A stretch of DNA of 64,000 nucleotides from Bacilli bacterium (GTDB taxonomy: Bacteria; Bacillota_I; Bacilli_A; RFN20; CAG-826): contig JAFUHI010000009.1 in NCBI GenBank assembly GCA_017468925.1, forward strand, positions 400,162-464,161. The letters are read 5' to 3'. The translations under genes were made by a program, and so were the position numbers. A model generated the notes under the pieces. It was not told where the DNA came from. It was given only the letters and a program-made list of their open reading frames with translations, and made no database searches. Shown here piece after piece: positions 2,794-62,611 of this stretch; position 1 is the first letter of the stretch, and each line of letters starts with the position of its first letter.

Positions 2794-4056
2794 ATGAAAA
2801 AAGTTTTTAGCGTGGCGATAATCGGTTGTGGCTCTAGAGGCCTTGATGTCTATGCCTTCAATATGGTTGAAACCAAAGGGTTTGAAATCGTATCCGTTTG
2901 CGACAAAAGAGAAACTCGCATAGAAAGAGCGAAAGAACTATATTCGATTAATCCAGATAACTGTTTCCTGGACGAGAACGAATTCTTCAAAGAAAAAAGA
3001 GCAGATGTCCTTGTTATAGCCACTCAAGATAGAGACCACGTAAGACAATGCATTAAGGCGTTAGAGAAAGGGTATGACGTCCTTTTGGAAAAGCCAATTA
3101 GCCCAAGCAAAGATGAATGCTTAGCTTTATTAGCCGCCCACAAGAAATACGGCGGGAAAGTGATTGTATGCCACGTTCTAAGATATGCGCCCGCATATAA
3201 GAAGGCCGCAGAATTAATCGATTCTGGCGCAATAGGCAAATTAATTGATATAAACGCTTTGGAGCAAGTTGGGTATTGGCATATCGCCCATAGTTTTGTC
3301 CGTGGCAACTGGAGAAATTCAGAAGAAACATCTCCTATGATTTTGGCCAAATGCTGCCACGATATGGATTTGCTTCAATATTTCGCCAAAAGCAAAGCCA
3401 AAAGTGTCTCCTCTATAGGCGACCTCTCTTATTTCAAGAAAGAGAACCAGCCCAAAGACGCTGCCGATAAATGCGATGAATGCAAATATGATAAGACTTG
3501 CCCATATAGTGCTTACCGCACATATGTCGAAAGATGGAAAGAGGCTGGAATGCCTGATACGATGTGGCCGCAAAACGTTGTCTGTCTGGAACATCCTCTT
3601 ACCGAAGAAAAAATAATTAATGCCTATAAGCACAATAAATATGGCCGCTGCGTATTTGCTTGCGACAATAATGTCGTTGACCATCAAACAACCAACATAT
3701 TGTTTGAAAATGGTGTCACCGCTAATCTGACGATGCTTGGCTTTACCCAAACAAATAGCAGGATTTATCGATTCCATGGCTCTATAGGAGAAATAGTCCT
3801 TGATGAGGAGAGAAAGGAATTGGTTTATAAGCCATTTGGCGGCCAAAGTGAAATATTCCCATTCTCCAAAATATTGAAAACAGAAGTGGGACATGGCGGA
3901 GGAGATTTGGCCCTTATTGAAGCTTTATACGATTCACTCACCAATCAAAGCGGCCTTTCTACAGTTTTAGAATCATCGATAGAAAGTCATTTGATGGCTT
4001 TTGCCGCTGAAGCAAGCAGATTAAAAGATGGCAAGGCGATAAATCCACACGAATGA
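2794..4056 (+). CDS. Gfo/Idh/MocA family oxidoreductase
   Basis: The 420-residue product has an N-terminal Rossmann fold with the dinucleotide loop GCGSRG (about residues 11-16) and the family's LLEKPIS motif near residue 96, where the lysine is the usual catalytic residue. A CHDMD motif near residue 187 matches the catalytic His-Asp position. A Cys-x2-Cys-x5-Cys cluster (about residues 228-238) forms an insertion seen in one branch of the family and may bind metal. Such enzymes oxidise or reduce sugars or cyclitols with NAD(P). The ATG has a good ribosome site (GGTGGAG, 10 nt upstream). Its position after a glycosidase-like gene suggests it acts on the released sugar, which is an inference. 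Confidence 0.88.
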   Translation: MKKVFSVAIIGCGSRGLDVYAFNMVETKGFEIVSVCDKRETRIERAKELYSINPDNCFLDENEFFKEKRADVLVIATQDRDHVRQCIKALEKGYDVLLEKPISPSKDECLALLAAHKKYGGKVIVCHVLRYAPAYKKAAELIDSGAIGKLIDINALEQVGYWHIAHSFVRGNWRNSEETSPMILAKCCHDMDLLQYFAKSKAKSVSSIGDLSYFKKENQPKDAADKCDECKYDKTCPYSAYRTYVERWKEAGMPDTMWPQNVVCLEHPLTEEKIINAYKHNKYGRCVFACDNNVVDHQTTNILFENGVTANLTMLGFTQTNSRIYRFHGSIGEIVLDEERKELVYKPFGGQSEIFPFSKILKTEVGHGGGDLALIEALYDSLTNQSGLSTVLESSIESHLMAFAAEASRLKDGKAINPHE

Positions 4057-48514: not shown

Positions 48515-49135
48515 ATGAACACACCAAACAAAATCACATTCGCAAGAATAATCCTAGCCGCAATGATGATTGCTTTTCTAATAGTCGCCTCATTCATCCC
48601 TGATTTTCATCCATGGGTGGGAAGAGAAGAATATGGGGTAAGCCTAGTCTATGTTATCGTATGCGTTATTTTCGTTTTGGCTTCGGTGACTGACTTGGTT
48701 GATGGCCAAATCGCGAGAAAAACCAATCAAATAACTGATTTGGGGAAATTCCTTGACCCAGTTGCTGATAAATTGCTAATCGACTCGTCTTTGATATTCT
48801 TAGCAATTCCTCTTTCATTTGCCCCTGGAAACGCTTTGATTCCTTGGTTTGTGGTGGTATTAATGATCCTAAGAGACTTGGTTGTCGATGCCTTGCGTTT
48901 TGTTGCCGCTAGCAAGGGAAGGGTTTTGGCCGCCAACGTTTTTGGAAAAATCAAAACGATTTCCCAAATGATTGCCATCCCCTTTGTGTTAGTAAATGGA
49001 TGGCCGTTTGTGTATTTCGACGCTTCCTGGGGATATGGAAGAATCTGCTTGGTCTTTATTTATATCGCATGTTTCTTCTCGTTGCTTTCCGGCATCATCT
49101 ATGTCTATAAAAACCGCGATGTTTTGAAAGGATAA
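48515..49135 (+). CDS. pgsA: Phosphatidylglycerophosphate synthase
   Basis: A 206-residue CDP-alcohol phosphatidyltransferase with the motif D-G-x2-A-R-x8-G-x3-D-x3-D (DGQIARKTNQITDLGKFLD, about residues 68-86) and about five helices. It makes phosphatidylglycerol phosphate from CDP-diacylglycerol. It starts 21 nt after rnpB without a terminator, so its mRNA could carry rnpB. Ribosome site AAAGGAA. Confidence 0.93.
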   Translation: MNTPNKITFARIILAAMMIAFLIVASFIPDFHPWVGREEYGVSLVYVIVCVIFVLASVTDLVDGQIARKTNQITDLGKFLDPVADKLLIDSSLIFLAIPLSFAPGNALIPWFVVVLMILRDLVVDALRFVAASKGRVLAANVFGKIKTISQMIAIPFVLVNGWPFVYFDASWGYGRICLVFIYIACFFSLLSGIIYVYKNRDVLKG

Positions 49136-49608
49136 TGATGGATAAAACCGAGAAACTTATCTCTTTATTAAAAGAGAAAAAGATAACCATTGGTTCGGTT
49201 GAATCATTAACCGCTGGTTTGTTTGGATCGACCTTGTGTTCAATCCCCGGAGCAAGCGCGGTATATAAAGGCGGAATAATCACTTATTCCCCCTCATTGA
49301 AAACAAGCCTTGTTGATGTGCCTGCAGAACTGATTGAAGAAAAAGGGGTTGTCTCAATTGAAGTCGCAAAGGCTATGGCGGAAGGCGGCCTCAAGAAAAT
49401 GGATGTTGGCCTATGTGTCTCTTTCACTGGGAACGCTGGCCCTACCGCAGAAAAAGGTGAGGCCCCTGTGGGGATGGTCTGCATGGCAATTGCTAGAAAA
49501 GATAAAGAAACATATACGTTCTCAAAAATTTTCAAAGGAGATAGAAACAAAGTAAGAACCGAATGTATAAACGAAATGGTAAAGAGAATAATCGATTTGT
49601 GTTCGTAA
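49135..49608 (+). CDS. pncC: CinA C-terminal domain protein (NMN amidohydrolase, PncC type)
   Basis: A 157-residue stand-alone CinA-C domain: TIGSVESLTAGLFGSTL (about residues 18-34), GGIITYSPSLK and SFTGNAGPTAEKGEAPVGMV (about 98-117). PncC recycles nicotinamide mononucleotide. In Bacillus the full cinA gene precedes recA, and the same position is kept here with the short form. ATG overlaps the pgsA stop. Confidence 0.9.
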   Translation: MMDKTEKLISLLKEKKITIGSVESLTAGLFGSTLCSIPGASAVYKGGIITYSPSLKTSLVDVPAELIEEKGVVSIEVAKAMAEGGLKKMDVGLCVSFTGNAGPTAEKGEAPVGMVCMAIARKDKETYTFSKIFKGDRNKVRTECINEMVKRIIDLCS

Positions 49609-50893: not shown

Positions 50894-52447
50894 ATGGAAT
50901 GGTACATTGGACTCATAATAGGTGTGGCAGCTGGCGCAATAATAGCTGTTGCCATATTCTTATTGGTCCCGACCTTAAGAAAAAATTCAGCAAAATCCGC
51001 TGCTAATGGAATTATTAGAGATGCTGAAATCAAAGCGGAACACATTACAAAAAATGCTCAATTAGACGCTAAACAGGCGGCTTTTGAAGCGAAACAGCAA
51101 GCCCAAAATGAGATCCGCCAGATGAAAGCGGATGCTCAGATTGAGCAAAAGAAACTAGATGCTAGAGAAGCCTCTATTGATCAAAGAGACGCTGCTCTTT
51201 TGAAAAGAGAAGAAGTTCTCGACCAAAAAAGAGAAGAACTCGAAGGGGGCATCGAAAGCAACAAAAAGAAGTCACAGGAATTATCCGATAAAATTGACTC
51301 CATCATCGCTGAACTAGAAAAAGTCAGCGGCATGTCGGTAAAAGAAGCGCACGATGAAATCATGGCCCGCCTTGAGAATAAGATGAGCGCGGAAATCGCC
51401 GCCTACATCAAAAACGCCGAAGATGAAGCGGAAGCCCAAGCCCAAGAAAAGGCCACTAACCTTCTCGCTTTGGCTTGCGATAAATACGCTCAAGATGTAA
51501 CAACTGAAAGAACTGTGTCTGTCATCGCTCTTCCAAATGACGAACTAAAAGGAAGAATCATCGGTAGAGAAGGAAGAAACATCAAGATTCTTGAACAAAC
51601 TTTAGGTGTTGATCTGGTAATTGATGACACCCCAGAAGTCATAACCGTTTCTTGCTTCGATCCAATCAGAAGAGAAATCGCCAAGCGCACCTTGGAATAT
51701 TTGGTCAAAGATGGACGTATCCAACCTGGAAGAATCGAAGAGGTTTCCGCTAAATTCACTCGCGAGTTAAAACAAGAGACCCAAAAAGCCGGCGAAGAAG
51801 CGGCTTATAAGCTTGGTCTTCCACGAATTAACCGCGAATTGCTGGGATATTTAGGTCGTTTGAAATATAGGACAAGCTTTGGACAGAACGTTTTGCAGCA
51901 TTCTATCGAAGTGGCTCATCTTACTGGAATCATGGCCGCGGAGCTCGGCTTAGACCAAAATCTCGCCAAGCGCGCAGGTTTGCTCCACGACATTGGTAAA
52001 GCAGTCGATTTTGAGCAAGAAGGAAGTCACGTCCAATTGGGATATGACCTCGCTAAAAAATATGGCGAGCCAGAAGTGGTGTTGAACGCTATCGCTTCTC
52101 ACCATGGAGACACCGAATGCAAATTCATAATCTCCCACCTTGTCAAAGCGGGTGATACTTTGTCCGCCGCTAGACCTGGTTCAAGAAGCGAGACGGTAGA
52201 GAATTACATCAAAAGAGTCCAGGAGCTCGAGACGATTGCCAAAGGATTTGATGGTGTTTCCCAAGCCTTTGCCATGCAAGCTGGTAGAGAGATCCGTGTA
52301 ATGGTGGATTACGAAAAAGTGAGTGATGCCGATGCGGTCATTATGGCGACGCAAATCCGTGAAAAGATTGAGAAAGAGATGACATATCCTGGCCAAATCA
52401 AGGTCTTTGTTCTTCGCGAATACAAGGCAATTGAATACGCCAAATAA
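50894..52447 (+). CDS. rny: Ribonuclease Y
   Basis: A 517-residue endoribonuclease with an N-terminal membrane helix (about residues 3-25), a long coiled coil (about 30-200), a KH domain (VSVIALPNDELKGRIIGREGRN, about 208) and an HD domain (LLHDIGK, about 366; SHHGD, about 395). It starts mRNA decay in Bacilli. It has a structured leader and ribosome site AAAGGAG. Next to ymdB and the MiaB-RicA-like fusion, which may modulate it. Confidence 0.97.
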   Translation: MEWYIGLIIGVAAGAIIAVAIFLLVPTLRKNSAKSAANGIIRDAEIKAEHITKNAQLDAKQAAFEAKQQAQNEIRQMKADAQIEQKKLDAREASIDQRDAALLKREEVLDQKREELEGGIESNKKKSQELSDKIDSIIAELEKVSGMSVKEAHDEIMARLENKMSAEIAAYIKNAEDEAEAQAQEKATNLLALACDKYAQDVTTERTVSVIALPNDELKGRIIGREGRNIKILEQTLGVDLVIDDTPEVITVSCFDPIRREIAKRTLEYLVKDGRIQPGRIEEVSAKFTRELKQETQKAGEEAAYKLGLPRINRELLGYLGRLKYRTSFGQNVLQHSIEVAHLTGIMAAELGLDQNLAKRAGLLHDIGKAVDFEQEGSHVQLGYDLAKKYGEPEVVLNAIASHHGDTECKFIISHLVKAGDTLSAARPGSRSETVENYIKRVQELETIAKGFDGVSQAFAMQAGREIRVMVDYEKVSDADAVIMATQIREKIEKEMTYPGQIKVFVLREYKAIEYAK

Positions 52448-52456
52448 GGAGAAACG

Positions 52457-53242
52457 ATGAGAATCCTCTTCTTTGGGGATATAGTAGGCGAGGCTGGGCG
52501 AAAAGCCATCAGCCTCGCTTTGCCTTCTTTGAAGGAAAAATATAAGCCTGATTTTGTTATTGCCAATGCAGAAAACGCAACGCATGGAAAAGGGCTATCA
52601 TATGCTCATTACAACTATTTGATTCAAGCAGGATGCGACTGTTTGACGCTGGGCAACCATTGGAGAAGCAAAGCATCCATTGACGATTACATCGATGATG
52701 CTAGCGACTTGGTTAGGCCGCTCAATGTGAAAGGTGATGCCAAAGGCAAAGGGAGTGTTTCCTTCGATGTCGGCGGCATTGAGGTTAGAGTAACAAATCT
52801 TCTTGGGACAATGTTGATGCGTGATCAAGAAGATTCGCCTTTTGAAAGATTCAACGATTTGCTTGGCAAAACAAAGCCCTGCATCCACATTGTTGATTTC
52901 CATGCCGAAACAACATCGGAAAAAGCGATGTTCGCCCACATGTTTGATGGCAGCGTCAGCGTTATAGTCGGAACCCATACCCACGTTCAGACAAATGATG
53001 CAAAGATATTAGAAAATGGCACTGCATTCATAAGCGATCTTGGAATGTGTGGTGACCCAGATGGCGTCATCGGCTTTGAGAAAAATTCGGTGATAAATCA
53101 CATGGTTTTCGGTGAAAAGACTCATTTCGAGCTTAATCCAAAAGCCAGGAAAATGATAAACGCTGCAGTGATTGATGTGGACGATATGACATATTCCGCC
53201 AAATCGATAACTGCGATAAACTTTATATTAGAGGATAAATAA
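52457..53242 (+). CDS. ymdB: YmdB-type metallophosphodiesterase
   Basis: A 261-residue calcineurin-like phosphodiesterase: FFGDIVGEAGRK (residues 5-16), ANAENATHGKG, GNHW, DFHAE and GTHTHVQTND supply the metal ligands. In Bacillus it hydrolyses 2',3'-cAMP and controls biofilm and other late-growth genes. It follows rny in the same operon, as in Bacillus. Its stop overlaps the next ATG by 1 nt. Confidence 0.95.
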   Translation: MRILFFGDIVGEAGRKAISLALPSLKEKYKPDFVIANAENATHGKGLSYAHYNYLIQAGCDCLTLGNHWRSKASIDDYIDDASDLVRPLNVKGDAKGKGSVSFDVGGIEVRVTNLLGTMLMRDQEDSPFERFNDLLGKTKPCIHIVDFHAETTSEKAMFAHMFDGSVSVIVGTHTHVQTNDAKILENGTAFISDLGMCGDPDGVIGFEKNSVINHMVFGEKTHFELNPKARKMINAAVIDVDDMTYSAKSITAINFILEDK

Positions 53243-54987
53243 TGGCAAAATGCGACTTCCGTTCCTTGCCTTCGATTGACGAAGCTAGAAATAGGCATGA
53301 TAAAACCAAGAAAGAGATAGATTCCAGGGCAGTCCCTCCACGCGTCAAGGCTTTTGCCGTTGGAAAGAAATACTACATCCATACATATGGCTGCCAGGCA
53401 AACATCAGAGATGAAGAGATAATGGCGGGCTATCTAGAAGAAGCGGGATTCTTAAGGACGGAGAATAGAAGCGATGCGGATGTCGCCATCATCAATACAT
53501 GCGCCGTAAGAGAAAACGCGGAAGATAAAGTCTATGGCGAAATAGGCCAATTCAAAGCCAACAAAGAAAAAAACAAAGATTTCATTCTTGCCGTATGCGG
53601 ATGCATGATGCAAGAAGAAGGCAAAGCCCAATATCTTCAGAAAACTTATCCCTTCATTTCTTTGGTTTTCGGCACGCACAATGTCAATCAGCTACTTTCT
53701 TTGATAAACGATGTTTTGATAAACAACAAGAATTTGGTGGATGTCAAATCATTCCCCGGCGCGGTCATAGAGAATCTGCCTTCAAGTAGGTTAGAAGATT
53801 TCAAAGCCTTCGTGAATATATCCTATGGGTGCGACAAATTCTGCACCTATTGCATAGTCCCTTATACCAGAGGAAAAGAAAGAAGCAGAAGTGAGCAAGA
53901 CATCGTTAATGAATGTCTTTCCTTGGTGAAAGATGGCTATAAAGAAATCACGTTGCTAGGACAAAATGTAAATAGCTATGGCTTAGATTTAGGGGATGGG
54001 AGCAATTTTGCATCATTATTAGAAAAAGTTGCAAAGACCGGCATCCCTCGCCTCCGTTTCCTCACTTCTTACCCCAGCCAATTCACCGACGAGATGATTG
54101 AGGTGATGAGGAAATACCCAAACATCATGAAATGGCTTCATTTCCCTGTCCAAAGCGGTTCCTCATCTATGCTAAGAAGAATGGGGAGAAGATACACAAG
54201 AGAAGAATATCTCGATATCGTAAAAAGATTAAGACAGGCAATGCCTGATATAAGTCTTACCACCGATATAATCGTTGGCTTCCCTAACGAAACTGAAGAG
54301 GAATTCGAAGACACTTTATCATTATGCGAAGAAGTTAGATATGCTTCCGCGTTCACTTTCATATTCTCTCCTCGCAAAGGCACTCCAGCAGCCAAAATCA
54401 AAGACGAGACTCCTAATGCTTTAAAACACGAAAGATTCGATAGACTTTTAAAGGTTATTGAAAAAACGACCGGGGAAGATAGCGAAAAAATGATTGGCAA
54501 AACCTATGTCGTTTTGGTTGATGGACCTTCAAAGAAAGATAGCAGTGTTCTAACTGGATATGGCGAGAACAATAAGCCGGTAAATTTCAAAGGCCCATCT
54601 TATCTCAAAGGATGCTTTGTTCCTGTAAAAATAATTGAGTCACATACATATTCTCTTATTGGGGAAATGGTAGGGGATCCGCTTATACATAAGGCAAAAG
54701 ATGTTTCATATTTGATGAGTGTGTCGCCTCTTTTCAAAGAATTCTTATCCATTTCTGAAGAATTAGAAAAAGATGAGGAAATAAAAGAACTTGGCGAAGA
54801 ACTTATCAAATGTAAGAAAGAGATGGCACTTTCTCTCGATGATAAAGAAAAACATAGCAAAGCAAAAGAAGAATATGAAAAGTGCCTTGAGAGAATAAGA
54901 AATCACCCGTTGCTTTCCAATAGAGAAAGCCTCATATCACTCGTAAATGACGAGCTAATGAAAATCAAGGAATTGCTTCAATGGTAA
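53242..54987 (+). CDS. miaB: MiaB tRNA methylthiotransferase fused to a RicA/YmcA-like domain
   Basis: 581 residues, against about 440-510 in the family. Three parts follow in order: the UPF0004 domain with Cys in GCQAN, NTCAV and CGCM (about residues 50-115), the radical SAM domain with CDKFCTYC (about 196-203), and a TRAM domain (about 410-475). Residues 479-581 (54676-54984) are extra and match the YlbF/YmcA family: AKDVSYLMSVSPLF, EKHSKAKEEYEKCLERI, NHPLL. In Bacillus ymcA (ricA) is the next gene after miaB. MiaB makes ms2i6A37 in tRNA; the extra part could affect RNase Y. Confidence 0.88.
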   Translation: MAKCDFRSLPSIDEARNRHDKTKKEIDSRAVPPRVKAFAVGKKYYIHTYGCQANIRDEEIMAGYLEEAGFLRTENRSDADVAIINTCAVRENAEDKVYGEIGQFKANKEKNKDFILAVCGCMMQEEGKAQYLQKTYPFISLVFGTHNVNQLLSLINDVLINNKNLVDVKSFPGAVIENLPSSRLEDFKAFVNISYGCDKFCTYCIVPYTRGKERSRSEQDIVNECLSLVKDGYKEITLLGQNVNSYGLDLGDGSNFASLLEKVAKTGIPRLRFLTSYPSQFTDEMIEVMRKYPNIMKWLHFPVQSGSSSMLRRMGRRYTREEYLDIVKRLRQAMPDISLTTDIIVGFPNETEEEFEDTLSLCEEVRYASAFTFIFSPRKGTPAAKIKDETPNALKHERFDRLLKVIEKTTGEDSEKMIGKTYVVLVDGPSKKDSSVLTGYGENNKPVNFKGPSYLKGCFVPVKIIESHTYSLIGEMVGDPLIHKAKDVSYLMSVSPLFKEFLSISEELEKDEEIKELGEELIKCKKEMALSLDDKEKHSKAKEEYEKCLERIRNHPLLSNRESLISLVNDELMKIKELLQW

Positions 54988-55856
54988 TAGTGATTTCTGG
55001 ACCGACTGGAACGGGCAAAAGCGCCTTAGCCCTCTCTTTGTGTGAGAAAATAGGCGGAGAAATCATCAATTGCGACGCGTTCCAGGTATATGAAGGATTG
55101 AAGATCGCAACCGCTTATCCAAGCGAAGAATCATTTAAAAGAATAAAGCACCATCTATATGGCTTTGTGCCACTTGATGAATCTTATTCGATTGGCCTCT
55201 ATCAAAAAGATTGCCGCAAGAAAATAGAAGAGGTTCTTTCTAGAGGGAAGGTCCCTGTCCTTGTTGGAGGTTCCGGCTTATATATTAGAGCCGCTTTATA
55301 CGATTATGACCTTAATGTCGATACTTCATCAATCGATTTAAGCGGCTTTGATTCATATTCCAATGAGGAATTGCATAGATATTTGGCATCATTAGACAAA
55401 AACGAGTCGGAAAAAATCCATCCAAACAATCGTAGGAGAGTATTAAGGGCTATCGCTATATGTCTAGCTTCAAAAGAAAATAAAACGGACTTCAATAGCC
55501 ATCAATCACACGCCCCAATATACGAGACTAAATTCTTTTGGCTAAGCAAACCAAGAGAGGAACTATACCCACTCGTAGAAAAAAGAGTGGATGAGATGTT
55601 TGATTCGGGTCTTCTAGAAGAAACCATTCCTTTGATTCAAAAATACGGCAGAGAATGCAATGCATTCCAAGCGATAGGGGTGAAGGAATTATTCCCATAT
55701 ATCGACGGAGAGATTGGCCTAGAACAAGCGAAAAAAGAAATTAAAACCCACACTAGGCAATATATAAAAAGACAGGAAACATTCTTGAGACATCAATTTG
55801 ATATGATTGAGGTCAAAGATGTAGAAGAGATATATTCCGTTTTAAGAAACGAATAG
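54981..55856 (+). CDS. miaA: tRNA dimethylallyltransferase MiaA
   Basis: A 291-residue P-loop enzyme: ISGPTGTGKSALA (residues 5-17), CDAFQVYEGLKIATAYPS (about 30-47; the family's DSxQ has Ala for Ser here), VGGSGLYIRA (about 93) and RQYIKRQETFLRH near the end. It adds the isopentenyl group to A37, the step before MiaB, and the genes overlap by 7 nt, so both steps are one unit. Confidence 0.95.
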   Translation: MVIVISGPTGTGKSALALSLCEKIGGEIINCDAFQVYEGLKIATAYPSEESFKRIKHHLYGFVPLDESYSIGLYQKDCRKKIEEVLSRGKVPVLVGGSGLYIRAALYDYDLNVDTSSIDLSGFDSYSNEELHRYLASLDKNESEKIHPNNRRRVLRAIAICLASKENKTDFNSHQSHAPIYETKFFWLSKPREELYPLVEKRVDEMFDSGLLEETIPLIQKYGRECNAFQAIGVKELFPYIDGEIGLEQAKKEIKTHTRQYIKRQETFLRHQFDMIEVKDVEEIYSVLRNE

Positions 55857-55926: not shown

Positions 55927-57549
55927 ATGGAAGAGCTTTTAAGAATTAACAAAATTGCCGAGACTGCCGGAATCGGAGAGGAATATCTAATTCCCTATGG
56001 CTTTTACAAAGCCAAAATTGATCCAAGAATCAATGAGTTAAACAAAAACAACAAGGACGCCAAATTGATTTTGGTTACCGCCATTACCCCGACCAAAGCA
56101 GGAGAAGGCAAAACAACGACATCAATCGCTTTAGCCGAAGGGTTTGGAAAGATTGGCCAAAAGGCTATGCTTTGCTTACGCGAGCCTGCTCTAGGACCAG
56201 TTTTCGGTATCAAAGGAGGCGCCACAGGTGGTGGAAAAGCCTCAATTGGTCCAAGCGAAGACATCAATCTTCATTTTACAGGCGATATCCACGCTTTGAC
56301 TTCTTCCGTTAATCTTATCTCCGCGATAATCGACAACCATATATATCAAGGAAACCAATTGAACATCGATCCCAATAGAGTCGTTTGGAGAAGAGCGATG
56401 GATATGAATGATCGCTCTCTTAGGGAAATAAGCATTGCTCATGGGCAAGGCAATGGAGTGATAAGAGATGATGGCTTCCAAATCACAGTCGCCAGCGAGC
56501 TTATGGCCATAATGTGCCTAGCAACAGATGAGAATGATTTCCTTGCTAGATTGGAGAAAATCATCGTCGCATTTGATAAAGAAGGGAAACCTTTAACCGT
56601 CAAAGATTTGAAATGCACCCACGCAGTAATGAGATTAATGAAGGATGCTTTGATGCCTAATTTAGTACAAACACTAGAACATCAGCCAGCATTGATTCAT
56701 GGAGGCCCATTCGCCAATATCGCTCATGGCTGCAATTCGTTAATTGCGACCAAAATGGCCTTAAAAATGGCCCCAATCGTTATCACTGAGGCGGGATTCG
56801 CTGCAGATTTAGGCGCTGAGAAATTCCTCGATATCGCTTCTAGAGAAGGCGAATTGCACCCAGATCTTTGCATCGTTGTCGCAACCATCAGAGCATTAAA
56901 AATGCACGGAGGAGTCAAGTTCGATGATCTATCAATCGAAAATGTGAAAGCACTCGAAGAAGGCATCGAAAATCTGGAAATCCATGTTGAGAATATGAAG
57001 AAATATGGTTTGCCAGTTCTAGTTGCTATAAACCATTTTGCATCCGATAGTGAAGAAGAAATTGAATTCTTGAAGAAGTGGTGTGAGAAAAAAGGATTCA
57101 AATACGCATTCTTGGATGGCTTCATAAACGGCGGAGAAGGATCGGTTGAATTGGCCAAGGCTGCCAAAAAGATGCTAGAAGAGGAAGAATCGAAATATCA
57201 CCCACTATATGACTTGAAACTGCCTCTAAAAGAGAAAATTGAAATCATCGCCAAAGAGATTTATAGGGCTGATGGAGTCATTTACGAAGAAAAAGCTGAA
57301 GAACAACTCAAGGAATATGAAAAACTTGGCTTTGGCGACGCATATATCTGCATGGCCAAAACCCCAAATTCCTTGACTGATGATCCTAAGGTCTATGGTG
57401 CGCCAAAAGGTTTCAAGATAAGAGTGAGAGAAGTTAATCTCTCAGCCGGTGCCAACTTTGTTATACCTCTATGTGGCAAGATTTATACGATGCCAGGATT
57501 AGGAAAAGTTCCTTCCGCCATAAAGATGGAGGATGAGCCGTGGCGCTAA
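55927..57549 (+). CDS. fhs: Formate-tetrahydrofolate ligase
   Basis: A 540-residue enzyme with a P-loop TPTKAGEGKTTT (about residues 54-65), REPALGPVFGIKGGA (about 86-100) and the usual end IYTMPGLGKVPSA. It makes 10-formyl-THF from formate and ATP for purine and fMet-tRNA synthesis. Ribosome site AAGGAGA. Overlaps the next gene by 10 nt. Confidence 0.97.
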   Translation: MEELLRINKIAETAGIGEEYLIPYGFYKAKIDPRINELNKNNKDAKLILVTAITPTKAGEGKTTTSIALAEGFGKIGQKAMLCLREPALGPVFGIKGGATGGGKASIGPSEDINLHFTGDIHALTSSVNLISAIIDNHIYQGNQLNIDPNRVVWRRAMDMNDRSLREISIAHGQGNGVIRDDGFQITVASELMAIMCLATDENDFLARLEKIIVAFDKEGKPLTVKDLKCTHAVMRLMKDALMPNLVQTLEHQPALIHGGPFANIAHGCNSLIATKMALKMAPIVITEAGFAADLGAEKFLDIASREGELHPDLCIVVATIRALKMHGGVKFDDLSIENVKALEEGIENLEIHVENMKKYGLPVLVAINHFASDSEEEIEFLKKWCEKKGFKYAFLDGFINGGEGSVELAKAAKKMLEEEESKYHPLYDLKLPLKEKIEIIAKEIYRADGVIYEEKAEEQLKEYEKLGFGDAYICMAKTPNSLTDDPKVYGAPKGFKIRVREVNLSAGANFVIPLCGKIYTMPGLGKVPSAIKMEDEPWR

Positions 57550-57749
57550 TCCCTTCTTACGACCTTTTCGATATTGTTGAGATGAAAAAAGCCCATCCCT
57601 GTGCTTCTAGAAGCAAGAATTTTCAAATCATCAGGGTTGGCGCGGACATCAAAATCAAATGCCTAGGCTGTGGCAATGTGATAATGATGGACCGCGATAG
57701 TTTCAATAAACGGATAAAGAAGGTCATAGAAAAAAGACAGGAAAAATAA
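57540..57749 (+). CDS. DUF951 family protein
   Basis: A 69-residue protein starting with GTG inside the end of fhs. DIVEMKKAHPCASRS, RVGADIKIKCLGCGNVIMM and DRDSFNKRIKKV match DUF951 closely; members are small, common in Firmicutes, and often near ychF. Cys-x2-Cys and HPC may bind metal. Function is not known. Confidence 0.93.
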   Translation: MALIPSYDLFDIVEMKKAHPCASRSKNFQIIRVGADIKIKCLGCGNVIMMDRDSFNKRIKKVIEKRQEK

Positions 57750-57803: not shown

Positions 57804-59825
57804 TTGGAATTAATAAATGTTTCAAAAAGCTTCAAAGAGGCTGGTGGCCAAAATAACGTTTTAAAAAACATCAGTTATTCCTTTGATGACAGGGGAATTG
57901 TCTCAATCGAAGGAAAATCTGGTTCGGGAAAGTCTACCTTGCTCAACCTTATGGCGTCCTTCGATAAGCCAACCAAGGGTGAAATCAAACATAAAGGCCA
58001 TACTATTTCAAAATTAAAGAAAGAAGAGATAAATAACTTCCGAAACAAAGAATGTGGCTTTGTTTTCCAACATTTTAATCTCATATCAAACCTCACTGTT
58101 TTGGAAAACATCATTCTTCCCTTGCTAATAGGCGGGGAAAAGAAGAATGACGCTGAGGAGAAAGCGTTGGGTCTTTTAGATTCATTTGGGCTTAAACAAT
58201 TTAGCGGGCGTGAAGTGTCAACATTATCAGGCGGAGAGAAACAAAGAATCGCCTTGATTAGGGCATTCATCACAAACCCATCAATCTTGCTTTGTGATGA
58301 GCCGACAGGCGCTTTGGATGAAGAAAATTCAGTTTTGGTGATGAAGATGCTGAAAGACTATTCCAAGAAAGCGTTGGTAATTGTCGTAACCCACAACCCT
58401 CTTTTATCGAAAAAGTATTGTGAAACAAGGCTAAAACTCGAAAATGGCCAATTAATCGAAATAAAAAAGAAGAAGAACAAGACAATAAAACAAAGCAAAA
58501 TAGAAACCAATCGAAATAGAAAAAAGTCTTGGCTCAACATGTTTTTAAAGAAAAACATGGTGCTAGATATAAAGAAAAATATATTCGGATTCTTAAGCGT
58601 GTTCTTTGCCTATTTCTCATTGCTTCTATCTTTTTCTTTTATACATGGATCCAATCTATCCATAGAAAGAGAAAGAAACACATCCGCCTTATACGATGTC
58701 TTCACTGTATCTGATAAGAAAATCTATGAGATTCCATCATCTCCGTTGCGATTATCTAGAAGCGAAAGGCCAAGCAAGTTCGAGATTGAGAGGCTATTGG
58801 GGGATAAAGGATATATCGCAAACGATTATTCATACTTTGTCCCGCAATATAGTGCTTTTAAACTTGATGGCAATGAGCAAGATTCATGTGCTTTTTCGCC
58901 AGTAATGAATTTGGATGAAGCTGAAATATTAAGCGGAAACCGCGGGGATTCTGGCAGTTTTTGCGCAATAAATGAGCCTTTTGCCAAAAAATATAGTGCA
59001 AAAATTGGCTCAACAATTTCATTCATATGCGAAAACTCTATCAATCACGAAGGAAAGACCCAAGACATATATATCGAAATGGAGTTCAAGGTGACTGCGA
59101 TTATCCATGAATTCCCTTTTCTATCAACGCCACAAGCTTATTATTCATATTCGGTTTTGGATTCACTTATGGAATCATATGAGCTAAAAAACATCGAAGA
59201 AGGGTTGACAATCAAAAGTTTTGTAGATGCTTCTAAAGGTAATTCTATATGGTCATCGTATAGGTATTATGTTTTTTCTTCTAAAAGAAGCGATTCCAAT
59301 GAAATAAGGAAGATGATTGATGCGCAGGGGAATGAAGGGATCACAATCTCCTCGTTATCATATGAAAGTGAAAAAGCCTTTTCTGACCTTATATCGTCTA
59401 CCGCTTTGTCAATCCTTCCTTTTTTAGTGATAGAAGTGCTTGGGGCAATCTTCATCATTGGCGCGGTTTCTTATTCATCGTTTTTGGAAAGAAGAAAAGA
59501 AAGCGCGATACTCTCTTCCTTTGGGGCGAACAAAAGAGATATTGCCTCCATATATTTAATCGAATCATCCCTTGTTTCGATTGTAGGAGCCTTCGCTTCC
59601 TTGGTTGCGGCAACCGCCTTAACATATGCACTGAATCCTTTGCTAGGAGAGTTAACAGGATTTTCTTCCCTTTTGAACATCCCGCTTTTAGGAATTGGGA
59701 AATATCTTTTTATAGTTGAGTTAGCTTTAGTTTTCATATCCATTGTTTCTTCCATTATCGGAAGCGGTATCCCAATACTGTTCTCAAAGCAAGATAACAT
59801 CATAGAAAGGTTAAAAGACGAATGA
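57804..59825 (+). CDS. MacB-type ABC transporter, fused ATPase and permease
   Basis: A 673-residue protein starting with TTG (GGAGGG 8 nt upstream). ATPase part (residues 1-225): GKSGSGKST, LSGGEKQR, LLCDEPTGALD. Then a membrane helix (about 255-275), an extracellular domain (about 280-520) and three helices of the FtsX permease type (about 530-660). MacB-like pumps export peptides or lipids or drive signalling. It overlaps the next, related gene by 4 nt, so a heterodimer is likely. Confidence 0.87.
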   Translation: MELINVSKSFKEAGGQNNVLKNISYSFDDRGIVSIEGKSGSGKSTLLNLMASFDKPTKGEIKHKGHTISKLKKEEINNFRNKECGFVFQHFNLISNLTVLENIILPLLIGGEKKNDAEEKALGLLDSFGLKQFSGREVSTLSGGEKQRIALIRAFITNPSILLCDEPTGALDEENSVLVMKMLKDYSKKALVIVVTHNPLLSKKYCETRLKLENGQLIEIKKKKNKTIKQSKIETNRNRKKSWLNMFLKKNMVLDIKKNIFGFLSVFFAYFSLLLSFSFIHGSNLSIERERNTSALYDVFTVSDKKIYEIPSSPLRLSRSERPSKFEIERLLGDKGYIANDYSYFVPQYSAFKLDGNEQDSCAFSPVMNLDEAEILSGNRGDSGSFCAINEPFAKKYSAKIGSTISFICENSINHEGKTQDIYIEMEFKVTAIIHEFPFLSTPQAYYSYSVLDSLMESYELKNIEEGLTIKSFVDASKGNSIWSSYRYYVFSSKRSDSNEIRKMIDAQGNEGITISSLSYESEKAFSDLISSTALSILPFLVIEVLGAIFIIGAVSYSSFLERRKESAILSSFGANKRDIASIYLIESSLVSIVGAFASLVAATALTYALNPLLGELTGFSSLLNIPLLGIGKYLFIVELALVFISIVSSIIGSGIPILFSKQDNIIERLKDE

Positions 59826-62611
59826 AGATAATAGAGATAAAAAACTTAAGAAAAAGATACGGAAATAGGGATTTATATTCAAAAGTTAATCTTTCTTTTG
59901 AAGATCGTGGGTTTTATGCAATTGTGGGAGAAAGCGGTTCTGGCAAAACATCTCTACTAGAGATAATAGGAGGGATAGACGCGGATTATTTAGGAAATGT
60001 GTATGTATTCGGCAACAACATAACTTTGATGAGTGAAGAGGAAAGAAGTTCTTTCCGCTTGTCAAAAATCGGATATTTAAGACAACAATTCGATTTATTG
60101 GGAGATGAGTCGTCTCTATTCAATGTTCTATTGCCTTTGAAAAGCAAAAACAATGACCCAAAAAGAATTCAGAATAGAAAAGCGGAAGATCTATTAAGCT
60201 TCGTTGATATAAAAAACAAAAGGGACCAGAAATGCAAAAAGATGTCGGGTGGAGAAAAGCAACGTGTTGCTTTATCCCGTTCTTTGACTTTGGATCCTCA
60301 AATAATTTTGGCGGATGAGCCTACTGGTTCCCTTGATAAAGATAACGGTGAAAAACTATTCTCTCTGCTATCCTCTTTATCCAAAGAACGATTGGTCATT
60401 GTCGTGTCGCATGACTTGGAGATCGTAAAAAGATACGCGGATATTATCTATGTTTTGGAGAATAAACAATTTAGAGAGGTAACGAATGAAAAAGAGACGG
60501 ATGAGAAGAAAAAACCTCTTTCGATTGCCACTCCGCCGAAGAAGAACAAAAACGTTCCTTTTTCCATGTGGTTGAAGCACGCCGCAAATGTTTTAAGAGG
60601 AAAGAAGAAGAGAACGTTGCTTACATTAATGCTATTGGTTTTCTCTTTAGCTTCCTTTGGCGTTTCTATCTATATGGGCAACGACGTCGATAAGGAGATC
60701 AATGGAGCTTTTTCCTCTCTTGTTGGGAGAAATGAGATAGTTATGCAAAAGAAGAATCAAAGCGATTCCCAATTCGGGAAGATTATCTCCGCCAGCGAAG
60801 ACGATGTCATAAAGATAATTGAAGAAAACCAGGGGATGTTTTCTTCGTACGGCGTCTCTTATCTCGTTGATTTAGACTCATTTTTCCCAACCAAAAATGA
60901 GTTCAATATAAAAGTAGATGATTATTTCCATCCAATAAAGGGTTTATCAATGAAATCAATTTGCGATTACAGCGTCATAGATGAAGCCAAATCTTTGCTT
61001 GTTTATCCTTCTATGCCTCCGATGTTGGAAGATGATCAGATAATACTAGGATTATCCTATGAAGCGATGGCCAATTTGGCATACTCTCTAGGAGTTTTTA
61101 GAGATTATCGCTCACTAGGTAATTATCTATTGAACCACGAGGTTTTTCTGGTGTTTTCGGTTGAGAATTCATCATGGGGATATAGCGATGAGGAAATGTT
61201 TAGGATAATGGGCGTGGCAGAAAGCGAAACGACTTCCATTTATCATCATTCGCATTTTTGGAACCGCTATGTCGTGGAAGTCAAAATGAGATTCCATCCA
61301 GGAGATGAGAACATTAATGAAAAACCCTGGGACTTTCAGCAGGTATTTTATATAGTCCCAGAGAATTCATATGACTTTGTTCCTAGCCTTAGGGAAAATG
61401 AGCAACTATCTTCATTCGTGTTTGAAAAAGCCAATAACATTTATTCTCCAATTCAATGCCCAATCGGTAAGCCTTGTTCATTGTCTAGATACTATGTCTA
61501 TATCGCGGATAAGAAGACCATCACCCATAAATTAATCAAGGACGTATCAAACGAAGAAGGGGTTGTTGGACATGTTGTTGGAGCGAATGGCTCCTATGTC
61601 TCTTTTCCAGACTCCACGATGGAAGGATTTTCTTCAAGGTTCTTTATCTCGTCTTCTTTAGAAGAAGTTGAATCGGTCGCAGAACAAATATCCTATATCG
61701 AGGAAGACAAAGCCGATTTGGAACCGGTTCTCAACGATAAGGTCTTGCAAGGATATTATTTACTACCAAAAGCCTCATCAATCACATTATCTTCAGATTT
61801 CACCAAACTCAAAAAAGGGAGGCTGCCTCTGACAAATGATGAGATATGCATCTCTTCATCGTTGGATAAGTTATTTTCTTCTCCATCGGTTTTGTATTCC
61901 GCAGCCTTATTACAAGAAAGAACGATTGGGGATTACATCGCTAGAGACTATTCCTATAACGATTTAAAGATAGTCGGGGTGGTGGAAGAAGAAAGCAAGA
62001 CGCTATTCGTCAAACCATATTGGCCGATAGATTTCTTTAGGGAAAAGGTGGGTGTCTCTTCTTTTAACCTTGAGCCATCTTCTTTGATTTTGAATATCGC
62101 CCAGAATAAAGATGTTGAGAAAATACGTGAAAGTCTATCTAGCAAATACCAAATGGAGAGATTTATAAATCCATCAGAGACGATTGAAAAATCAATCTCA
62201 TCCACGATGAACTTTTTGAAGATTGCTTTGTTATTTGGTTCAATCGGATGTTTAGCGTTATCGCTTATTTTGCTTGTGGTCATCTCGCTTCTGACGATTT
62301 TAGAAAGCGATAAAGAAGGAGAGGCTTTGTTTTTGATGGGATTTTCAAGAAAAGAGATAATGGATAGCTATTTTGCCTCGTCTTTTTCTTTGATTTCCAT
62401 ATCCACATTGATATCGGTTATTTCAATGATAGCGGTGGAGTTTTTCGCCCATATGGAAATAGGCTCTTCCTTAGGGATGAATGGGACGTTCTCATTTTCA
62501 TTAACGCCTCTATTGTGCATAATTAGCGCGGCTTTTGCGGGGTTAATTGTCACATCATTCGTTATTCATCAACTTGTTAGAAGACGTGATTTTGCAAGTA
62601 AAGGAATATAA
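59822..62611 (+). CDS. MacB-type ABC transporter, fused ATPase and permease (long partner)
   Basis: A 929-residue protein of the same build as the one before: ATPase (1-220) with GESGSGKTS, MSGGEKQR, LADEPTGSLD; a helix near 265-285; a large extracellular domain (about 290-790); and three C-terminal FtsX-type helices (about 800-915). The extracellular part is twice as long as in its partner and may take the substrate or a partner protein. Substrate unknown. Ends 56 nt before ychF. Confidence 0.87.
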   Translation: MKIIEIKNLRKRYGNRDLYSKVNLSFEDRGFYAIVGESGSGKTSLLEIIGGIDADYLGNVYVFGNNITLMSEEERSSFRLSKIGYLRQQFDLLGDESSLFNVLLPLKSKNNDPKRIQNRKAEDLLSFVDIKNKRDQKCKKMSGGEKQRVALSRSLTLDPQIILADEPTGSLDKDNGEKLFSLLSSLSKERLVIVVSHDLEIVKRYADIIYVLENKQFREVTNEKETDEKKKPLSIATPPKKNKNVPFSMWLKHAANVLRGKKKRTLLTLMLLVFSLASFGVSIYMGNDVDKEINGAFSSLVGRNEIVMQKKNQSDSQFGKIISASEDDVIKIIEENQGMFSSYGVSYLVDLDSFFPTKNEFNIKVDDYFHPIKGLSMKSICDYSVIDEAKSLLVYPSMPPMLEDDQIILGLSYEAMANLAYSLGVFRDYRSLGNYLLNHEVFLVFSVENSSWGYSDEEMFRIMGVAESETTSIYHHSHFWNRYVVEVKMRFHPGDENINEKPWDFQQVFYIVPENSYDFVPSLRENEQLSSFVFEKANNIYSPIQCPIGKPCSLSRYYVYIADKKTITHKLIKDVSNEEGVVGHVVGANGSYVSFPDSTMEGFSSRFFISSSLEEVESVAEQISYIEEDKADLEPVLNDKVLQGYYLLPKASSITLSSDFTKLKKGRLPLTNDEICISSSLDKLFSSPSVLYSAALLQERTIGDYIARDYSYNDLKIVGVVEEESKTLFVKPYWPIDFFREKVGVSSFNLEPSSLILNIAQNKDVEKIRESLSSKYQMERFINPSETIEKSISSTMNFLKIALLFGSIGCLALSLILLVVISLLTILESDKEGEALFLMGFSRKEIMDSYFASSFSLISISTLISVISMIAVEFFAHMEIGSSLGMNGTFSFSLTPLLCIISAAFAGLIVTSFVIHQLVRRRDFASKGI

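Follow-up and report, generated by a model that had tools for sequence, protein, structure and literature searches.

A miaB gene fused to ricA in a lineage of uncultured Bacilli

The tRNA methylthiotransferase MiaB and RicA (YmcA), which is known from the RicA-RicF-RicT complex (Y-complex) and takes part in directing RNase Y, the principal mRNA-cleaving enzyme, are encoded by one gene in the DNA described here, a stretch of 64,000 nucleotides from contig JAFUHI010000009.1 that we call the window. The gene, miaB::ricA (53242..54987, + strand), has an intact open reading frame of 581 aa with matches to MiaB and to the YlbF/YmcA family. We consider it likely that the product is a single two-domain protein, with RicA at the natural C-terminus of MiaB, and that the RicA role is kept, from a MiaB-tethered position. 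The halves are already known; the joined form is new, and no report of a miaB-ricA fusion was found in searchable open-licence full texts. We describe the gene, its distribution among relatives and its probable origin, and weigh what the joining may mean.

The fused gene and its neighbours

MiaB forms ms2i6A in tRNA, and the miaA product makes its i6A substrate. Three domains were found in the MiaB half, all on the + strand: the N-terminal methylthiotransferase domain UPF0004 (Pfam PF00919; residues 43-144, 53368..53673), with C51, C87 and C121; the radical SAM domain (PF04055; residues 191-361, 53812..54324), whose CX3CX2C motif is C197/C201/C204; and the TRAM domain (PF01938; residues 416-477, 54487..54672). 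These six cluster cysteines are all invariant among 43 aligned proteins. Residues 43-477 match TIGR01574 (MiaB) with 517.9 bits, the NCBIfam equivalog cut-off being 355.3, and an earlier note that had read the gene as MiaB with an extra segment was right in this. By alignment, TRAM is the natural C-terminus of separate MiaBs; those of related families stop at SLxGEx, where the extra domain starts. Judged by these features, the MiaB half is a complete, probably active enzyme. What follows it, residues 479-581 (54676..54984, + strand), is a five-helix RicA (YmcA) domain.

Two further methylthiotransferase paralogues (L236 and L237, at G000:C2:51278-52492 and G000:C8:40198-41487) are 33% and 30% identical to MiaB; their frames, 426 and 434 aa, are too short for a RicA domain.

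Upstream on the same strand lie rny, encoding RNase Y (50894..52447; TIGR03319, 644 bits), two genes away as the earlier note had it, and a ymdB-like metallophosphoesterase gene (52457..53242; TIGR00282). Downstream, also on the + strand, miaA (tRNA dimethylallyltransferase; 54981..55856; TIGR00174) shares its first 7 nt with the end of the fused gene. Of 36 loci of the genus, 31 show such an overlap, of 4 to 7 nt, and miaA is unfused in all of them.

Other features of the window include a CinA-like protein cut down to its PncC amidohydrolase domain (49135-49608, 157 aa), upstream of recA; a small DUF951 protein (57540-57749; PF06107, 88 bits) overlapping the end of formate-tetrahydrofolate ligase; and two neighbouring ABC transporter proteins (57804-62611), both of which begin with an ATPase and end in an FtsX-like permease part.

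Family and fold of the extension

Searched alone, the window extension matches PF06133 (Com_YlbF) over residues ~483-560 with E 1.1e-4 and 23.1 bits, a borderline score just below the gathering score of 23.9. Fused orthologues score higher: 35.8 bits in G015 (E 1.3e-8), 25.3 in both G020 and G010, and 24.7 in G003, and the fused copy of G207 is likewise above the cut-off. The family assignment of the earlier note is thus borne out by HMM in these orthologues, the window copy itself falling short. Of 32 aligned domains, some fused and some separate, 26 match PF06133, and any other family is matched by at most one; the window extension also has weak Pfam matches to TPR and coiled-coil families.

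A model of the domain built from the 32-member alignment has a mean pLDDT of 91.6 and five helices, and in the full-length model (pLDDT 89, pTM 0.86) the five helices come directly after the TRAM domain. Foldseek comparison with the PDB placed YlbF/YmcA-family chains at all of ranks 1-11, with probabilities of 0.99-1.00 and E-values of at least 0.0075. Realignment by VIA gave Z of 10.8 for RicF (6prk), 10.7 for YmcA (2pih) and 10.5 for RicA (6prh), values that are not decisive alone, since helical bundles can reach them by chance; other family members gave 8.8 and 8.6, and unrelated helical proteins at most 8.1. The modelled structure therefore agrees with the earlier note, RicA/YmcA and RicF being the best PDB matches.

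Both halves are constrained, RicA less than MiaB: in close pairs the RicA domain has a dN/dS of ~0.03-0.2, which places it under purifying selection, and MiaB one of 0.01-0.08. Median identity is 37% for the RicA domain and 61% for MiaB; the domain has diverged in some members, and in several the HPL motif is lost. An unrelated coiled coil is ruled out by the family-specific Foldseek matches together with this conservation. Chance does not account for the extension: all genus members that could be scored retain it, under purifying selection.

RicA rather than RicF

Sequence scores alone fail to tell RicA from RicF. The domain profile finds RicA chains of the PDB at E 7.5e-7 and 1.3e-6 and RicF at 0.93, but a control profile, built from genes at the ricF position, behaves likewise (RicA 3.8e-4, RicF 0.11). 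We therefore discarded these scores as proof of RicA identity and used synteny instead.

Other families of the order carry a separate YlbF/YmcA-family gene of 98-126 aa directly after miaB, and the arrangement rny-ymdB-miaB-ricA-mutS-mutL was seen several times in relatives (mutS, mutL and other neighbours being named by eye from sequence). The only other clear YlbF-family gene of the window's genome sits between def and rsmD-coaD, the place of ylbF (ricF) in Bacillus subtilis. A second, separate ricA, which would have spoken against the earlier note, was not found in the window's genome (79.6% complete), where only ricF lies elsewhere. Since a separate orthologue follows miaB in relatives and the other family gene is at the ricF position, position and fold mark the extension as a RicA orthologue, as the note had proposed. 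Its identity comes mainly from synteny, and it is not a full Bacillus-type RicA.

Distribution and tree

The relatives are largely metagenome assemblies. In the window's genus the fusion is present in all 36 genomes whose contig reaches the junction, a set that includes two in which miaB itself is cut by a contig end. G001 had seemed to be a genus member that lacks it; its contig ends inside miaB. In the sister genus of the same family (g21) the gene is fused in 29 of the 30 genomes with a match, G114 having two genes. The earlier note's suggestion of the same fusion in related genomes is thus amply confirmed.

Isolated fusions were found elsewhere in G180 and G203 (g38) and in G207 (g40). Apart from these, miaB and ricA are separate at the loci inspected in other genera, whether of the family or of the order. 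The same holds for all the matches listed from outside the family in a class-wide sample of 149 genomes, with frames of 104-174 aa. Altogether the fusion occurs in more than 60 separate assemblies or species; the named records of the fused group are uncultured gut and rumen Bacilli and Erysipelotrichaceae, including Candidatus Alloenteromonas.

A tree was built from the MiaB core, excluding the RicA columns. It unites g1 and g21 in one clade (SH-aLRT 99) and requires five changes of the fused state. On its simplest reading there was apparently one origin and one split within the g1/g21 clade, plus three isolated fusions; the fusions of G180, G203 and G207 and the split of G114 each come from a single assembly. 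At the G114 locus (L168; G114:C28, ~3180-3540) MiaB ends in GELA followed by a stop, and four bases after that stop ricA begins with an ATG of its own. This is possibly a formerly fused gene that has split again.

Junction and origin

The earlier note explained the fusion by loss of the miaB stop codon. This fails: in separate relatives ricA starts within the last codons of miaB, with an overlap typically of 8 nt, and in 15 of the 16 separate loci inspected it is read in the +1 frame relative to miaB. Loss of the stop alone cannot yield RicA; joining the two frames takes the net removal of one base (mod 3). A small deletion would have put the overlapping +1-frame ricA into the frame of miaB in the ancestor of the two genera, and comparable events apparently took place again in other genera of the family. 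In g38 the fusion of G203 (L218) differs from its unfused relative L216 by an apparent single-base deletion at the overlap; an assembly error may underlie this case.

Partners, tails and iron-sulfur clusters

RicF and RNase Y were each detected in 36 of the 37 genomes of the genus; among the 36 with an RNase Y match, 33 have it on the miaB contig, a short way upstream of that gene. For RicT, 38 of 41 relatives gave a match and the window's own genome none, an absence that is uninformative at 79.6% completeness. The separate ricF and ricT genes that the earlier note proposed to look for therefore exist in the genus and in relatives respectively, ricF also in the window's genome. The six cysteines of the RicT motif CX4CCX30CX4CC are kept in all 25 loci examined.

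In Bacillus, cluster 2 is held by C141 of RicA and by tail cysteines of RicF, and the 23-residue C-terminal tail of RicA is required for RicT binding in the complex studied (PMC6751060). In B. subtilis the RicT-RNase Y complex requires RicA and RicF, neither of which stays stably bound (PMC10470536). The fused RicA ends at its last helix, and this C-terminal tail and its cysteine are absent. The cluster-2 tail cysteines are absent too from RicA where the order encodes it as a separate gene, and from RicF of the genus. Because those separate RicA genes also have no tails, the fusion did not cause their absence.

On sequence grounds, cluster 1 may persist on RicT, and a Bacillus-type cluster 2 is improbable. 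RicT (L046-L053, L060-L073) with its six cysteines and RicF (L001, L074-L084) and RicA without tails make a natural separation of the two clusters, and a lineage of this kind bears on the purpose of cluster 2. With the RicA and RicF tails absent, delivery of RicT may work differently or not at all. The iron-sulfur argument of the earlier note is accordingly weaker than it appeared, RicA C141 and the RicF tail cysteines being absent here.

What the fusion may mean

Most likely the fused RicA still pairs with RicF and, while tethered to MiaB, helps RicT to reach RNase Y; that both halves are active, that RicA and RicF pair, and that MiaB influences the targeting of RNase Y in any way, we infer. 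The physical coupling of thiomethylation in tRNA with the decay of mRNA, raised in the earlier note, is hypothetical. That the RicT-binding tail is missing makes the connection with RNase Y weaker. A different account shares this anatomy and denies only the importance of the tether: the domains would keep their own jobs, and joining them would merely replace translational coupling, with no regulatory meaning. We put its chances at about even. Accidental fusion is easy where separate genes overlap by ~8 nt and sit one base out of frame, as the apparent single-base deletion in L218 (g38) illustrates, and the sister-genus locus L168 has two genes again. Yet the fused form is kept across two genera in a tree with five changes of state, and the equally tight miaA overlap is never fused in the genus; long retention, apparent recurrence and this contrast are what suggest that the tether may matter.

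It is rather doubtful that the extension is a module of YlbF/YmcA fold which no longer plays the RicA role and works for MiaB instead, for example in dimerisation or as a tRNA- or ribosome-docking arm. The absent RicT-binding tail and cluster-2 cysteine would fit such a module, as would evolution faster than that of MiaB and the missing HPL motif of several members; however, separate RicA genes of the order have no tails either, and RicF, the heterodimer partner, is kept in nearly every genome of the genus. That the fusion is an artefact of assembly or gene calling, or the extension an unrelated coiled coil, is very improbable indeed. The prevalence of metagenome assemblies, the sub-threshold Pfam score of the window domain and its weak TPR/coiled-coil matches might suggest as much, but an identical fusion in so many separate assemblies excludes an artefact for the main clade (G180, G203 and G207 are less secure), and the confident model with its family-specific structure matches argues against a coiled coil.

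Retained in more than 60 species, and with perhaps several origins, the joined form hints that MiaB and RicA act close together. By Rosetta-stone reasoning, a fusion that is long kept and apparently recurrent argues for contact or a common task between MiaB and the Y-complex, and it bears on why miaB and ricA remain adjacent in Firmicutes. For B. subtilis it predicts a MiaB-RicA interaction and an effect of miaB on RicT-RNase Y. A bolder version, which we think unlikely, is that MiaB and RicA form a physical unit in which MiaB, with its Fe-S clusters and tRNA contact, carries an RNase Y specificity factor to its site and so couples RNase Y cleavage to tRNA modification and to iron-sulfur or SAM status; the fusion would then fix covalently a transient MiaB-RicA contact existing in separate-gene bacteria, Bacillus included.

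Comparison with known systems

The adjacency of miaB and ricA has been described as fairly well conserved synteny, in a paper that does not mention a fusion (PMC6751060). The fused gene resembles miaB and ricA (ymcA) of B. subtilis in its MiaB domains, cluster cysteines, RicA fold and neighbourhood. It differs in that the B. subtilis genes are adjacent and separate, whereas here there is one polypeptide, its RicA part is without tail and cysteine, and miaA is directly next. Compared with the RicA-RicF-RicT complex of B. subtilis, members of the genus have RicF, RicT with the CX4CCX30CX4CC motif and RNase Y, a likeness of co-occurrence only; unlike in that complex, RicF and RicA here are without the cluster-2 tail cysteines and RicA is tethered to MiaB. 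Close counterparts too are the unfused miaB-ricA pairs within this order and family (L034-L044, L176-L181), which are directly homologous and occupy the same place. These remain two genes, with ricA overlapping the end of miaB and nearly always in the +1 frame.
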